From: Spirochaetota bacterium | GTDB lineage: Bacteria > Spirochaetota > Brevinematia > Brevinematales > Brevinemataceae | Length of the DNA stretch: 64,000 nt | Direction: 5' to 3' | NCBI GenBank assembly: GCA_030154445.1 | Contig: JAGUQW010000002.1 | Location: forward strand, 248,001-312,000 | Shown: positions 35,873-40,900 of the stretch, piece by piece | How the letters are laid out: each line of letters opens with the position of its first letter | Numbering within the stretch: position 1 is the first letter of the stretch | Position numbers and translations under genes: made by a program | Notes under the pieces: model-generated | Told to the model about the DNA's origin: nothing | Databases searched by the model: none | The model's input: only the letters and a program-made list of their open reading frames with translations

Positions 35873-36901
35873 TTGAAAAACAGGTGTAGTATATTTTTTG
35901 TTTTCTGTATTATATTTTTAATTAATTGTTCTTCAAAAACTTATCAAAGATATGTATATCAACAAAAATTAATGTACACTTCTTTTGATATAGTATTTTA
36001 TTCTCAGACATCAAAATTCAAATTGAATTCAAAAATCAATCATATTTGGGATACTTTAGATAATCTTGAATATAATCTTTCTGCAATTGGAGATGGTTTC
36101 GTAGGTACACTTAATACAGATGGATTTATTAAAGAAGATAAGAATCCTGAAATTTTTCAAATAGTATCTAATTTTATTGTTCGTTCTAAAATAATAAATC
36201 AACAAAGTAATGGAGCATTTGATATCACGGTATATCCCCTTATTCGTTTATGGGGTTTTTATATTCAAGATATTCAAAAAAGAGTTCCAACAGATCAAGA
36301 AATCGAGGATACTTTAAAATGTACAGGGATGGACAATATTATTTTTACTAATGATGGTATTTTATTAAAAAATAATGTCAAATTAGATTTAGGTGCTATA
36401 GCAAAGGGATATGCTGTAGATGTTGCTTTAGGAATGCTTAAAGATATTACTAATATTAGTGCTGGTTTTGTAAATGCTGGTGGTAATGTGAAAATATATG
36501 GAGCAAAACCTGATGGAACACTATGGAAGGTTGGTATACGAAATCCTAGTGGTGGTGATGTGAAAGAGATAATAACTTTGTATGATGGGGAAGCAATAGC
36601 TACTTCTGGAGATTATGAACAATTTTTTGAAGTAGATGGTCAGTACTATCATCATATTTTTAATCCTAAAACAGGAAAACCTGTGACACATAATCTAGCA
36701 TCTGTTAGTGTTATATTGAAAGGTAGTGCTGAAGAGACAGATATATTAGCAACAACATTTTTATCAATGGGTATAAAAAAATCGAAAGAATTATTAGATG
36801 TTTTTGATAAAGAACAGGAACATTCTATATTATATATAGAGCGTAATGGTAAAGAACTTGTGTCAGAAGCTAATAATGCTTGGATTCAAAGAACAAAATA
36901 A
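35873..36901 (+). CDS. apbE: FAD:protein FMN transferase ApbE (lipoprotein)
   Basis: 342 aa, TTG start supported by AGGTGG upstream. The N-terminus ends in the lipobox LINC with Cys19, so the protein is anchored on the outer face of the inner membrane. Conserved ApbE blocks are present: FDITVYPLIRLWGF, VKLDLGAIAKGYAVDVA, GFVNAGGNVKIYG and HHIFNPKTGKPVTHNLASVS. ApbE attaches FMN through a phosphoester to Thr in [S/D]GAT motifs. The following genes encode its likely substrates, RnfD (SGTTYL) and RnfG (SGATFS), so the operon joins enzyme and substrate. Confidence 0.93.
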   Translation: MKNRCSIFFVFCIIFLINCSSKTYQRYVYQQKLMYTSFDIVFYSQTSKFKLNSKINHIWDTLDNLEYNLSAIGDGFVGTLNTDGFIKEDKNPEIFQIVSNFIVRSKIINQQSNGAFDITVYPLIRLWGFYIQDIQKRVPTDQEIEDTLKCTGMDNIIFTNDGILLKNNVKLDLGAIAKGYAVDVALGMLKDITNISAGFVNAGGNVKIYGAKPDGTLWKVGIRNPSGGDVKEIITLYDGEAIATSGDYEQFFEVDGQYYHHIFNPKTGKPVTHNLASVSVILKGSAEETDILATTFLSMGIKKSKELLDVFDKEQEHSILYIERNGKELVSEANNAWIQRTK

Positions 36902-36928: not shown

Positions 36929-38185
36929 ATGACTACTGCTACATATTCAGATAAAATCTTACAAGAATTTCCTTATGCAGATAAAGAAAAGCTAAGTAGA
37001 AAAATAATGATACATTTTCTTATTGCATTAATGTTTCCTATTGGAGCAGGTTTTTATTTTTTTGGTTTAGCTATGGTGAGAACAGCTGTAGCTTGTGTAG
37101 CTTTTTCAGTATTAACAGAATTTGTCTTGAATAAAATTATGCATAAAGAATCTACTTTGAGTGATTTGACAGCTATAGCAACAGGATTAGTAATTGCTAT
37201 AAATATGAGACCTGGTTTGGGATTGTACCCTCTGTTACTAACAAATATTGTTGGAATAGCTATAGGTAAAATTATTTTTGGTGGTGTTGGATTTAATCCT
37301 ATAAATCCTGCCGTAGTAGGAAGATTACTGCCTGTTGCTGGTTTTCCTGGATTGTGGGCAACTTCAATTCGACCAACTATTCCAAATCTAATGGAATATG
37401 CCGGATTAACATATTGGGAAGCAACTCAATATACATTTGTTAAAAATGTAAAGACACTTCCTTTCTACAACAAAGTTGTAGCAGCACAACCTGCTCACGC
37501 GCCATATTCATTTACAACAGAGCTAAACACATCATACGATGTTCTTTCTGGAACAACATATTTGGAAACAGTTAAAAATTGGTATAAAAGTGGAGTAATG
37601 CCAGAAGGTATGGAAAATCTTACTGAATTTTTTGATTATTGGACTTTATTTATTGGAAATATGCCGGGAACATTAGGTGAAACTTCAAAACTTGCTATTT
37701 TATTAGGATTTCTTTACTTAGTAATTACAAGAGTTATATCACCTTTAGTTCCTTCATTAATCGTTCTTTTTATGGGTATTTTTGGTTGGATTTTTGCATC
37801 AACTCGTATAGGACCGTCTACAATAGGCCCTATGGGACTTTTTGCAGGAGATCCATTGATATGGATTTTAGCAGGTGGAGCAATGTTAGGTTGTGTTTAC
37901 ATGGAAACTGATCCTGTTAGTTCTCCTCGTACTATACAGGCAAAAATTTTGTATTCTCTATTATTTGTAAGTATTGTAACATCTATTCGATTAGTTTTTT
38001 CTTATCCAGAAGGTGTGTCTTTTGCTTTGTTAAGTTCCAATTTGATAATTCCATTCATTGATCAATTGTGTAATCCGAAACACAAATATGCACAACAAAT
38101 CAAACAAATTTTGATAACACTTGCTATTATCTCAGTTGTTTTTTTAACTGGAATCTTTGTTTATAAATTTTTTTTTAATACCTAA
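36929..38185 (+). CDS. rnfD: Electron transport complex subunit RnfD
   Basis: 418 aa, longer than typical RnfD (about 350) because of an insertion around residues 160-230. Family blocks: ATGLVIAINMRPGLGLYPLL, VGFNPINPAVVGRLLPVAGF, LGETSKLAILLGFLYLVITR and METDPVSSPRTIQAKI. SGTTYL (Ser207-Tyr211) lies in the periplasmic loop at the place of the FMN-accepting Thr, probably Thr210. About ten membrane helices. Some features recall NqrB, to which RnfD is homologous, but the neighbours and motifs fit Rnf. AGGAGG precedes the ATG. Confidence 0.88.
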   Translation: MTTATYSDKILQEFPYADKEKLSRKIMIHFLIALMFPIGAGFYFFGLAMVRTAVACVAFSVLTEFVLNKIMHKESTLSDLTAIATGLVIAINMRPGLGLYPLLLTNIVGIAIGKIIFGGVGFNPINPAVVGRLLPVAGFPGLWATSIRPTIPNLMEYAGLTYWEATQYTFVKNVKTLPFYNKVVAAQPAHAPYSFTTELNTSYDVLSGTTYLETVKNWYKSGVMPEGMENLTEFFDYWTLFIGNMPGTLGETSKLAILLGFLYLVITRVISPLVPSLIVLFMGIFGWIFASTRIGPSTIGPMGLFAGDPLIWILAGGAMLGCVYMETDPVSSPRTIQAKILYSLLFVSIVTSIRLVFSYPEGVSFALLSSNLIIPFIDQLCNPKHKYAQQIKQILITLAIISVVFLTGIFVYKFFFNT

Positions 38186-38294: not shown

Positions 38295-38921
38295 ATGTTA
38301 AAAGATGCTCCAATTGGTTCACCTATTTTTCATATATGGAATGTGCTATATCTAACTATATTTTCTAGTATAATGGCTTTTGGTGTTTTATTTGTATATT
38401 ATATAACATATCAGCCACCAAATCCTTTAGCAGATGTTCAATTAATGTTAGGTGATAGTTTAAGGTTATATAACATTGAACAAAAGAATATGATCAAAGA
38501 AGAAACACTTGCACTTAATATTATGGATCAAACATCAATAAATATTTATTTTGAAACTCCAGAATTATTAAGATTTTATATAACAGACAAAGTTACAGGA
38601 GAGCCTGTAATGACAGTTTTTTCTGTTTCTTCTGGTGGTTTTGGAGGATCTGTCCGTGCTTTAGTTGGTACGGATGGTAATAAAGTGCTTGCTATGCGTG
38701 TATTAGATGTTACTACAGAAACAGCAGGTTTAGGGCAACGAGTAGCTGAATTTGGTTTCCAACGTCAATTTATTAACAAGACTTTAGATGAACTACCTAT
38801 AGATAGAACAGAGTGGGATTCAAAGGGAATAGATATGATTTCAGGAGCTACTTTTAGTTCGTCAGCTATAGTTGATAATATTGACAAAGCTTTTAATCTT
38901 TATCAAATGGGAGAAAACTAA
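38295..38921 (+). CDS. rnfG: Electron transport complex subunit RnfG
   Basis: 208 aa. One N-terminal membrane helix (about 13-35), then a periplasmic FMN-binding domain ending in the flavinylation motif SGAT (Ser183-Thr186) in DMISGATFSSSAIVDNI. GSVRALVGTDGNKVLAMRVL and TTETAGLGQRVAEFGFQRQF match the conserved FMN-domain core. It transfers electrons on the periplasmic side of the Rnf complex. Its stop overlaps the rnfE start. Confidence 0.92.
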   Translation: MLKDAPIGSPIFHIWNVLYLTIFSSIMAFGVLFVYYITYQPPNPLADVQLMLGDSLRLYNIEQKNMIKEETLALNIMDQTSINIYFETPELLRFYITDKVTGEPVMTVFSVSSGGFGGSVRALVGTDGNKVLAMRVLDVTTETAGLGQRVAEFGFQRQFINKTLDELPIDRTEWDSKGIDMISGATFSSSAIVDNIDKAFNLYQMGEN

Positions 38922-39745
38922 TGAATAAACAAAATGACACCCCTTCTTCATGGTCAGAATTAGAAAAAGGTTTTTTAGCACAAAATCCAGTATTTGTATT
39001 ATTAATAGGTTTGTGTTCTTCATTAGCAGTATCTACAAATGTTTCTAGTGCATTGGCTATGGGATTAGCAGCCTTATCAGTTCTTGTTTGTTCTAATATT
39101 ATTATCTCACTATGTCGTAATATTATTCCTCCAGCTGTTCGTGTTCCTGCTTTTATTATTGGTATCGCTGGATTTACAACAATAATTGAAATATTAATGA
39201 AATATTATGCTCCAACTCTATATGGAGTACTAGGAGTTTACCTACCTTTAATTGTTGTAAATTGTATTATTTTAGGAAGAGCAGAATCTTTTGCGAGTAA
39301 AAATACAGTTTGGAAATCTACTCTTGATGGTTTAGGTATGGGTTTAGGTTATACTGCAGCTCTAGTATCCATTGCAATTCTTAGAGAATTATTAGGTAAT
39401 GGAACTTTATCTTTTCAAATGGCAGAAGATATAGGTATTGTTTTGAATTTTACCCATCCTGTGGTGCAAGATATAACTAATCCAATAATAAATGTAGTGA
39501 ACGTTTTTGGTACACCAACACCAATTAATCAAGCTCTAAAAGAACAATATTTAACAATATTTAATATAGTTCATATTATTCCTGAGCCTCTTCAATTAAT
39601 GAAACTACCTCCTGGAGGATTTTTAGTAATGGGAATTTATCTTGCTATTTTACAACAGTTTACTATTGTGAAATCAAAGAAGAAAGTAGCAGCCTTGAAA
39701 GCTGCAGCAGTTGCAAAAAAAGTAGAAGCAAGTAAAGGAGTATAA
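38921..39745 (+). CDS. rnfE: Electron transport complex subunit RnfE
   Basis: 274 aa, six membrane helices. LEKGFLAQNPVFVLLIGLCS is the conserved start, VYLPLIVVNCIILGRAESFA carries the Cys that with RnfA holds the intramembrane Fe-S cluster, and LDGLGMGLGYTAALVSIAIL follows. Between helices 5 and 6 there is an insertion (about 170-215), and the C-terminus has an Ala/Lys-rich tail (KKKVAALKAAAVAKKVEASK) not usual in the family. It overlaps rnfG by 1 nt and lies 2 nt before rnfA. Confidence 0.92.
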   Translation: MNKQNDTPSSWSELEKGFLAQNPVFVLLIGLCSSLAVSTNVSSALAMGLAALSVLVCSNIIISLCRNIIPPAVRVPAFIIGIAGFTTIIEILMKYYAPTLYGVLGVYLPLIVVNCIILGRAESFASKNTVWKSTLDGLGMGLGYTAALVSIAILRELLGNGTLSFQMAEDIGIVLNFTHPVVQDITNPIINVVNVFGTPTPINQALKEQYLTIFNIVHIIPEPLQLMKLPPGGFLVMGIYLAILQQFTIVKSKKKVAALKAAAVAKKVEASKGV

Positions 39746-39747
39746 AA

Positions 39748-40335
39748 ATGGCTGAATCATCATATTTTATAATATTTATTACTGCTATTTTAAGTGGAAA
39801 CATGGTTTTTGCTAAATTTTTAGGTCTTTGTCCTTTTTTTGGTATAACTAATAAAATGGAAGATGCTGTAGGAATGGGATTAGCTGTTATATGTGTTCAA
39901 ATGGTAACAGTATTACTAACATGGCCTCTATATCATTTAGTGCTATTACCTTTAGGGTTGGAAGTGTTAAAAACAATGATGTTTATTCTTGTTATTGCTT
40001 CTTGTGTTCAAATGTTAGAGGCAATTATGAAAAAAATTACACCTAAACTTTATAAAAACTTAGGCGTATTTTTACCATTAATTACTACAAATTGTATTAT
40101 TTTAGGAATAGCACTGATTATTATTTCTGAAAAATTAGATTTTGGAAGAGCTTTGTGGTACGCATTTTGTGCTTCTTTAGGATTTATGTTTGCTCTAGTG
40201 TTGATGACAGCCATCCGTGATAAAGTTAAAAATGCACCAATACCAAAAGCTATACAAGGAGCTCCTTTAGCATTTTTTATTGCTACAATTATATCTATAG
40301 CATTTATTGGATTTGGTGGATTTGCAATAAATTAA
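39748..40335 (+). CDS. rnfA: Electron transport complex subunit RnfA
   Basis: 195 aa, six membrane helices. NMVFAKFLGLCPFFGITNKM and VFLPLITTNCIILGIALIII carry the two Cys-containing half-helix motifs shared with NqrE. With RnfE it forms the inverted-repeat core that carries a [2Fe-2S] cluster in the membrane. Adjacent to rnfE (2 nt). Confidence 0.93.
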   Translation: MAESSYFIIFITAILSGNMVFAKFLGLCPFFGITNKMEDAVGMGLAVICVQMVTVLLTWPLYHLVLLPLGLEVLKTMMFILVIASCVQMLEAIMKKITPKLYKNLGVFLPLITTNCIILGIALIIISEKLDFGRALWYAFCASLGFMFALVLMTAIRDKVKNAPIPKAIQGAPLAFFIATIISIAFIGFGGFAIN

Positions 40336-40361: not shown

Positions 40362-40565
40362 ATGATTATACCAGTACATATTATTTATAATTTATTAGGG
40401 ATAGCAAGTTTTTTTAGTGTTTGTGCATTTATTTTTTCTTGGAGTGCTGCTAAAGGTATAAAAATTCAATCCTGTAAAGGTGATAGTGGTATGTGTGGTT
40501 GTGATGGACAAGAACACAAGCATAATACGACAGCTGAAAAAATATTAGCATTAATTAAAGAGTAG
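40362..40565 (+). CDS. Small cysteine-rich membrane protein, NqrM (DUF539)-like
   Basis: 67 aa. One membrane helix (about 5-28) is followed by a short cytoplasmic tail with Cys38, Cys45 and Cys47 in IQSCKGDSGMCGCDGQEHKH, plus Cys21 within the helix. This layout, a helix then a basic/Ile stretch and C-x(6)-C-x-C, resembles NqrM, the small iron-delivery factor needed to insert the intramembrane Fe-S centre between NqrD and NqrE. RnfA and RnfE are the homologues of NqrE and NqrD and lie directly upstream. AGGAG precedes the ATG. The similarity is weak in sequence, so FeoB-associated Cys-rich proteins remain an alternative. Confidence 0.6.
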   Translation: MIIPVHIIYNLLGIASFFSVCAFIFSWSAAKGIKIQSCKGDSGMCGCDGQEHKHNTTAEKILALIKE

Positions 40566-40577
40566 AAGGAGATAAAT

Positions 40578-40865
40578 ATGGATATTTCTATTGTAATAGT
40601 AGGAACTATTGTTCTTAGTGGAACAGCATTGATATTAGGTCTGGCAATTTCATTTGTAACACAATTATTTTATGTGGAAATAGATCCGCGTATTGATCAG
40701 CTTTACAATATTTTACCACATTTTAATTGTGGAGCTTGTGGACATCCTGGTTGTGTACCTTATGCAGAATCTATTATAAATGATAATGAACAAACAAATA
40801 AATGTAAACCAGGTGGAGCTAAAGTAGCTGCTCAAATAGTAGAATTTTTAAATTCTAATAAATAA
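40578..40865 (+). CDS. rnfB: Minimal RnfB (membrane anchor plus one Fe-S domain)
   Basis: 95 aa. One N-terminal membrane helix (about 5-30), then a single 4Fe-4S domain with Cys51, Cys54, Cys59 and Cys76 (NCGACGHPGC, then CKPGG), the signature of the RnfB N-terminal domain. Normal RnfB is about 180-330 aa and carries at least two further ferredoxin-type [4Fe-4S] clusters; these are absent here and the frame ends cleanly at a stop followed by a hairpin. No rnfC lies in the cluster. Electron entry must therefore differ or use proteins encoded elsewhere. Confidence 0.82.
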   Translation: MDISIVIVGTIVLSGTALILGLAISFVTQLFYVEIDPRIDQLYNILPHFNCGACGHPGCVPYAESIINDNEQTNKCKPGGAKVAAQIVEFLNSNK

Positions 40866-40873
40866 ATAAATAT

Positions 40874-40900
40874 TCTCTCTACTATATGATAGAGAGATTT
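40874..40900 (+). terminator. Terminator after the rnf cluster
   Basis: 8-bp stem (40874-40881 with 40890-40897), 8-nt loop, followed by a T-rich tract. Confidence 0.6.

Follow-up and report, generated by a model that had tools for sequence, protein, structure and literature searches.

Between rnfA and rnfB of an Rnf cluster in a spirochaete of the Brevinemataceae, we found a gene for a small protein, predicted to consist of a single membrane helix and a cysteine tail, that recurs across this family. Our preferred reading, to which we assign a probability of roughly 0.4, is that the protein is a Brevinemataceae accessory dedicated to Rnf, which would hold iron or an Fe-S unit in its tail for assembly of the complex, most likely for the [2Fe-2S] site of RnfA/RnfE. 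The client cluster, the metal binding and the topology are all matters that we infer, and so is the view that the protein acts in maturation and not in catalysis.

The small gene and its operon

The window, that is, the whole 64,000-nucleotide stretch of DNA analysed, carries the gene order apbE-rnfD-rnfG-rnfE-rnfA-small gene-rnfB, as called from Pfam and NCBIfam matches of the neighbours (Table 1), and the cluster from apbE to rnfB is probably one transcript. The small gene begins with an ATG that has a ribosome-binding-like AGGAG closely 5′ of it, and it fills a slot 26 bases past the end of rnfA and 12 bases ahead of rnfB. The first-pass annotation had described a 67-aa gene in this position with homologues RnfE and RnfA encoded directly upstream, and both descriptions proved accurate.

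Within the truncated RnfB, the PF04060 FeS domain spans residues 46-78; RnfBs of 95-103 aa, cut down to a helix with a single FeS domain, were observed both in the Brevinemataceae and in another family of the order, f3 (the rnfB of the window; L127, L131, L134). No rnfC was found within the Rnf cluster of the window, and the sole rnfC found in the genome belongs to a second, divergent Rnf-like cluster on contig 6 of this genome, G000 (L067, 5540-9566), together with genes for an RnfD-like protein (537 aa; PF03116, 6.9e-11) and for RnfE-like and RnfA-like proteins (PF02508, 5e-7). Neither ligand cysteine is present in the RnfA-like protein there (LGLG, no NC), and the second is missing from the RnfE-like protein (no NC); judging by these sequences, the contig 6 cluster possibly represents an Rnf relative that has no intramembrane Fe-S cluster. 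NQR was not detected in this genome, whose strong RnfA homologues are the RnfA and RnfE of the window cluster only.

At its first ligand cysteine, RnfE of the window reads GLCSSLAV; most Rnf proteins read GLCPTLAV, and the NQR-like clusters of the phylum GICSALAV or GICSTLAV (also compared: L142, L162). The P-to-S change after this cysteine was considered as a correlate of the small gene and rejected, as G035 and G074 carry the serine (GLCSALAV) without the small gene. In the sister genus of the family, RnfD (L124, 7433-9148, genome G003) has 571 aa with an apparent C-terminal RnfG/FMN-bind-like extension (SGATYTAY), and a separate RnfG is also present.

Table 1 Features of the Rnf cluster and of the small gene, in positions of the window.
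Feature	Position	Strand	Basis or remark
apbE flavin transferase, first cluster gene	35873..36901	+	Pfam, NCBIfam
rnfD	36929..38185	+	Pfam, NCBIfam
rnfG (FMN_bind; SGATFSS flavinylation-type motif)	38295..38921	+	Pfam, NCBIfam
rnfE; cluster-ligand cysteines C32, C115 kept	38921..39745	+	PF02508, NCBIfam rnfE
rnfA; cluster-ligand cysteines C28, C116 kept	39748..40335	+	PF02508, NCBIfam rnfA
Small gene (67 aa), single helix and Cys tail, Rnf-associated orphan	40362..40565	+	
Predicted membrane helix, codons 5-30; hydrophobic core codons 7-25	40374..40451	+	
Cys tail C38, C45, C47, H52 (C-x6-C-x-C-x4-H)	40473..40517	+	all four invariant in genus
Truncated rnfB (95 aa): helix and one four-Cys FeS domain, without ferredoxin domains	40578..40865	+	PF04060, NCBIfam
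Terminator-like hairpin and T run directly 3′ of rnfB, operon end	40874..40897	+	consensus match only

A single predicted helix precedes the cysteine tail

AlphaFold modelled the small protein, at low confidence (mean pLDDT 65), with one helix at residues 5-30, disorder in the tail and another, short helix at residues 57-66, which agrees with the single helix and C-x6-C-x-C tail described earlier (C38, C45, C47). Because lysine and arginine are absent ahead of the helix and K31, K34 and K39 lie behind it, the positive-inside rule predicts an N-out, C-in orientation, and the Cys tail is probably cytoplasmic. The tail motif varies by genus: it reads C-x5/6-C-x-C-x4-H in Brevinema, with three cysteines and a histidine, and C-x5-C-x2-C-x5-C in the sister genus, the only one with four tail cysteines (TCGGSDGCNICPDQNIC; L004). 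A profile search of the PDB with the small-protein family returned no match.

The small gene is conserved and confined to Brevinemataceae

Orthologues were identified in four of four Brevinemataceae genomes (G000-G003), all in the rnfA-rnfB slot, with a protein identity of 71-73% within the genus and 44% to the other genus of the family. Against the congeneric genomes G001 and G002, dN/dS was about 0.3 by NG86 (dN about 0.18, dS 0.52-0.63) and 0.12-0.15 by YN00 (dN 0.17-0.18, dS 1.2-1.45). The small gene is thus under purifying selection, and it is a real gene, more than a chance ORF. Short ORFs encoding a single N-terminal helix numbered 248, of which 16 had a C-x3-8-C-x1-2-C tail, counts that cover all reading frames of the fetched loci and are not a genome-wide estimate; four of the 16 were entries of the small family, 11 came from loci fetched for NqrM or FeoB-associated proteins and one was from elsewhere.

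Beyond the family, the small gene was found in none of the 14 other genomes of the class that were searched, and a profile search of 393 Spirochaetota genomes produced no convincing further member. The stronger of the weak outside matches were rejected, since they were reading frames interrupted by stops, segments of long ORFs or, in genome G168, a FeoB-associated protein. A plasmid search for the small protein found none, and in the 40 rnf-type regions that were fetched, the only convincing small helix-plus-Cys-tail genes in or beside rnf were those of the family, setting aside the short RnfBs. In the sister families of the order, either a short rnfB comes straight after rnfA or there is no rnfB; families f2 and f4 have no rnfB beside rnfA. 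The first-pass annotation had named absence from related rnf clusters as grounds for refutation, and this applies in part: the gene is present across the Brevinemataceae and was not found in the Rnf clusters belonging to the order's remaining families. As judged from these searches, the small-protein family is an orphan restricted to one lineage.

Comparison with NqrM profiles

NqrM is a maturation factor of Na+-NQR (PMC12174285, PMC6209661), and the review among these sources names it for NQR only (PMC12174285). The first-pass annotation had called the small protein NqrM-like, a likeness that stands for its architecture, for its place by RnfE/RnfA and for the presence of apbE; homology to NqrM is not supported. 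A search with the DUF539/NqrM profile, PF04400 (curated cut-off 22 bits), gave no match to the four small proteins at E ≤ 10. The same profile was silent on the whole genome and likewise on control genomes; the phylum-wide repeat did find true NqrMs. An HMM built from 15 reference NqrMs (12 proteobacterial and three from the spirochaete phylum) gave the small proteins at most 2.5 bits with all filters off. Furthermore, when the small family was aligned with three NqrM sets by hhalign, the scores were 16-19, and 27, 85 and 138 of 500 column-shuffled controls scored as high. The juxtamembrane GSCGG motif, present in 15/15 NqrMs, has the counterpart QSCKGD in the three Brevinema genomes and YTCGGS in the sister genus, and the NQR-operon neighbourhood typical of NqrM was not found, Rnf alone being detected in the genome. 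Because no profile matched, the hhalign scores fell within the null and GSCGG was not kept, we do not place the small protein in NqrM, with the limit that 67 residues are too few to separate a very diverged NqrM from a convergent analogue.

In the course of these searches, NqrM was found in only about four Spirochaetota genomes, and NQR-like D/E subunits (GICSTLAV, LGMCSF) were observed in G023, G020 and G037 (L137, L147, L151) with no NqrM-like small ORF nearby in the survey of rnf-type regions. Comparing the spirochaete NqrMs (L062-L064) with a PF12669 set of FeoB-associated proteins (L173-L202), hhalign returned a probability of 93%; on this alignment the two families may be related, and both may belong to a single, loosely defined class of iron proteins with a membrane tether and a Cys tail.

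Alternative readings

It seems improbable that the small protein is a genuine NqrM orthologue that has diverged extremely and was either acquired along with the Rnf cluster or kept by it. Such an origin would fit the common architecture, the apbE gene in the operon (apbE adjoins nqrM in several NQR operons) and the ungapped hhalign register of the helix and first cysteine, which lays SCKG over SCGG; the scores nevertheless do not rise above the null, though the same tools recognise NqrM across phyla, with 99% hhalign probability between spirochaete and proteobacterial NqrMs and PF04400 matches to the former at E about 1e-7. We regard as the least probable of the readings considered a membership in, or recruitment from, the FeoB-associated Cys-rich membrane proteins (PF12669), which would imply general iron handling rather than a function in Rnf. 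The earlier concern that the protein might fall into an unrelated family of this kind holds in one respect: the best outside match of the small-family profile is a protein beside feoB (E 5e-5, in the single genome G168), itself matching PF12669 at 4.7e-5, below the family cut-off. PF12669 (curated cut-off 27 bits) did not match anything in the four family genomes, nor did hmmscan assign it to the small protein at E ≤ 10, and an unfiltered HMM of the FeoB-associated proteins gave 3 bits. By hhalign, the FeoB-associated proteins were the only family clearly above the null (22.5; 2/500 shuffles as high), a score that is suggestive only, given that the comparison took in several families and that scores of this kind are inflated where cysteines cluster. 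Against a general iron function, no feoB was found in G000 (95% complete), and the feoB of G001-G003 lies on contigs other than that of the rnf operon, yet this operon retains the small gene; moreover, the tails of PF12669 proteins follow a basic juxtamembrane stretch, which the small protein lacks.

The main functional rival is an accessory resembling RseC, and on balance we consider it unlikely. By this analogy, the small protein would be a stripped-down counterpart of RseC and a lasting partner of RnfB, modulating or extending electron transfer, and not a maturation factor. E. coli RseC, an interaction partner of RsxB and RsxD, has a cytoplasmic C-x5-C-x2-C-x5-C motif that forms an Fe-S cluster sensitive to oxygen (PMC11729352), and the sister-genus tail reproduces exactly this motif; rseC of C. 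ljungdahlii is needed for autotrophy and regulates the rnf genes (PMC9124969). The small gene abuts rnfB, and in two other Rnf clusters from spirochaetes (L135 and L136) rnfB adjoins a true RseC gene (PF04246, at 1e-19 and 6e-26). The small proteins, however, had no PF04246 match and no pair of helices after a Cys domain, and the CX2CX5C part conserved in RseC is present in the sister genus (CNICPDQNIC) and absent in Brevinema (CGCDGQEH), where CxC and a histidine have taken its place. A further possibility, which we hold to be distinctly unlikely, is a small accessory subunit that offsets the truncated RnfB and the missing linked rnfC by contributing structure or an electron relay to a reduced Rnf. 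The 95-aa RnfB, an rnfC located only in another, divergent cluster and the 12-base distance between the small gene and rnfB accord with such a subunit; three cysteines and a histidine in a disordered tail would nonetheless make a poor redox relay, and a short RnfB does not require the small gene, because family f3 has one (98 aa) without it.

Proposed function in Rnf assembly

We return to the reading in which the small protein serves the assembly of Rnf. Its one helix would anchor the protein in the membrane beside RnfA/RnfE, and the cytoplasmic tail of three cysteines and a histidine, or of four cysteines, would transiently hold iron or an Fe-S unit. During assembly, the tail would pass its load into the complex, most likely to the intramembrane [2Fe-2S] site of RnfA/RnfE, in a hand-over like that proposed for NqrM in Na+-NQR. 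Several observations are consistent with such a role: the slot is fixed in every family genome and the Cys/His tail is conserved; the cluster ligands of RnfE and RnfA are intact; apbE, the other cofactor-insertion factor, lies in the same operon; NqrM and the FeoB-associated proteins, which share the helix-then-Cys-tail plan, are both iron-linked; and the genome has no detected NQR. On the other side stand the lack of a significant sequence link to NqrM and the sister families of the order, which have Rnf without the small gene.

To our knowledge, no such small subunit is present in the solved Rnf complexes, nor does the Rsx system of E. coli have an NqrM. Since most Rnf complexes manage without it, the small gene would represent a lineage-specific requirement or improvement. 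The narrower proposal, that a maturation factor dedicated to the intramembrane [2Fe-2S] cluster of RnfA/RnfE arose in the Brevinemataceae separately from NqrM, is one that we put forward tentatively and hold to be less probable than the broader role. It was suggested at the outset that a dedicated maturation factor for Rnf would be new, which agrees with the literature searched, the function itself being putative. If true, this would be the first maturation factor of its kind for any Rnf complex, and it would mean that Fe-S insertion at a buried site can need a membrane-tethered iron donor in Rnf as in NQR. We know of no established route by which iron reaches the buried Fe-S cluster of RnfA/RnfE, and NQR needs NqrM. 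A lineage-specific gene beside rnfA, which could be deleted or omitted from co-expression, would make this question of iron delivery testable, and such tests could show whether the Cys-tail proteins, among them NqrM, the FeoB-associated proteins and RseC, are repeated solutions to one problem.

Comparison with known systems

CcoS/FixS (PF03597), which acts in cbb3 oxidase assembly, was raised by the FSWSxAxG end of the helix: it is likewise a small single-helix protein with an FxW-like helix end, but it has no Cys tail. We rejected this candidate, as the small protein had neither a PF03597 match nor a cbb3 oxidase partner, and the hhalign comparison was borderline (22/500 shuffles as high) and covered the helix only. 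With the FeoB-associated proteins, the small protein shares an N-terminal helix followed by a Cys tail, and the sister-genus tail given above resembles that of the G168 protein (TCSGSSGCAGCPYAKNGC); it differs in that its gene does not lie beside feoB and its scores stay below all family cut-offs.

RseC resembles the small protein in being Rnf-associated and a neighbour of rnfB, with identical tail spacing in the sister genus on the predicted cytoplasmic side. Its Cys domain, however, precedes two helices, whereas the small protein has one helix and then the tail, at half the size; because the protein plans differ in this manner, the likeness to RseC is one of analogy, not of membership.

The likeness to NqrM comprises the size, the N-terminal helix followed by a Cys tail with a CxC or CxxC core, and an operon shared with apbE and with subunits that bind an intramembrane Fe-S cluster; even the switch between CxC in Brevinema and CxxC in the sister genus recurs within NqrM itself. 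Among the cysteines of NqrM, Cys33 is reported to have the dominant effect. The differences lie in the spacing from first to second cysteine, x5-6 in the small protein and mostly about x11-16 in NqrM, in the histidine that replaces the fourth cysteine and the missing GG after the first cysteine in Brevinema, and in the partner, which is Rnf and not NQR, with the gene placed inside rather than after the structural genes. Collectively, the small protein is NqrM-like in architecture and context and, by analogy with NqrM, to which homology is not demonstrated, plausibly works in a similar way.
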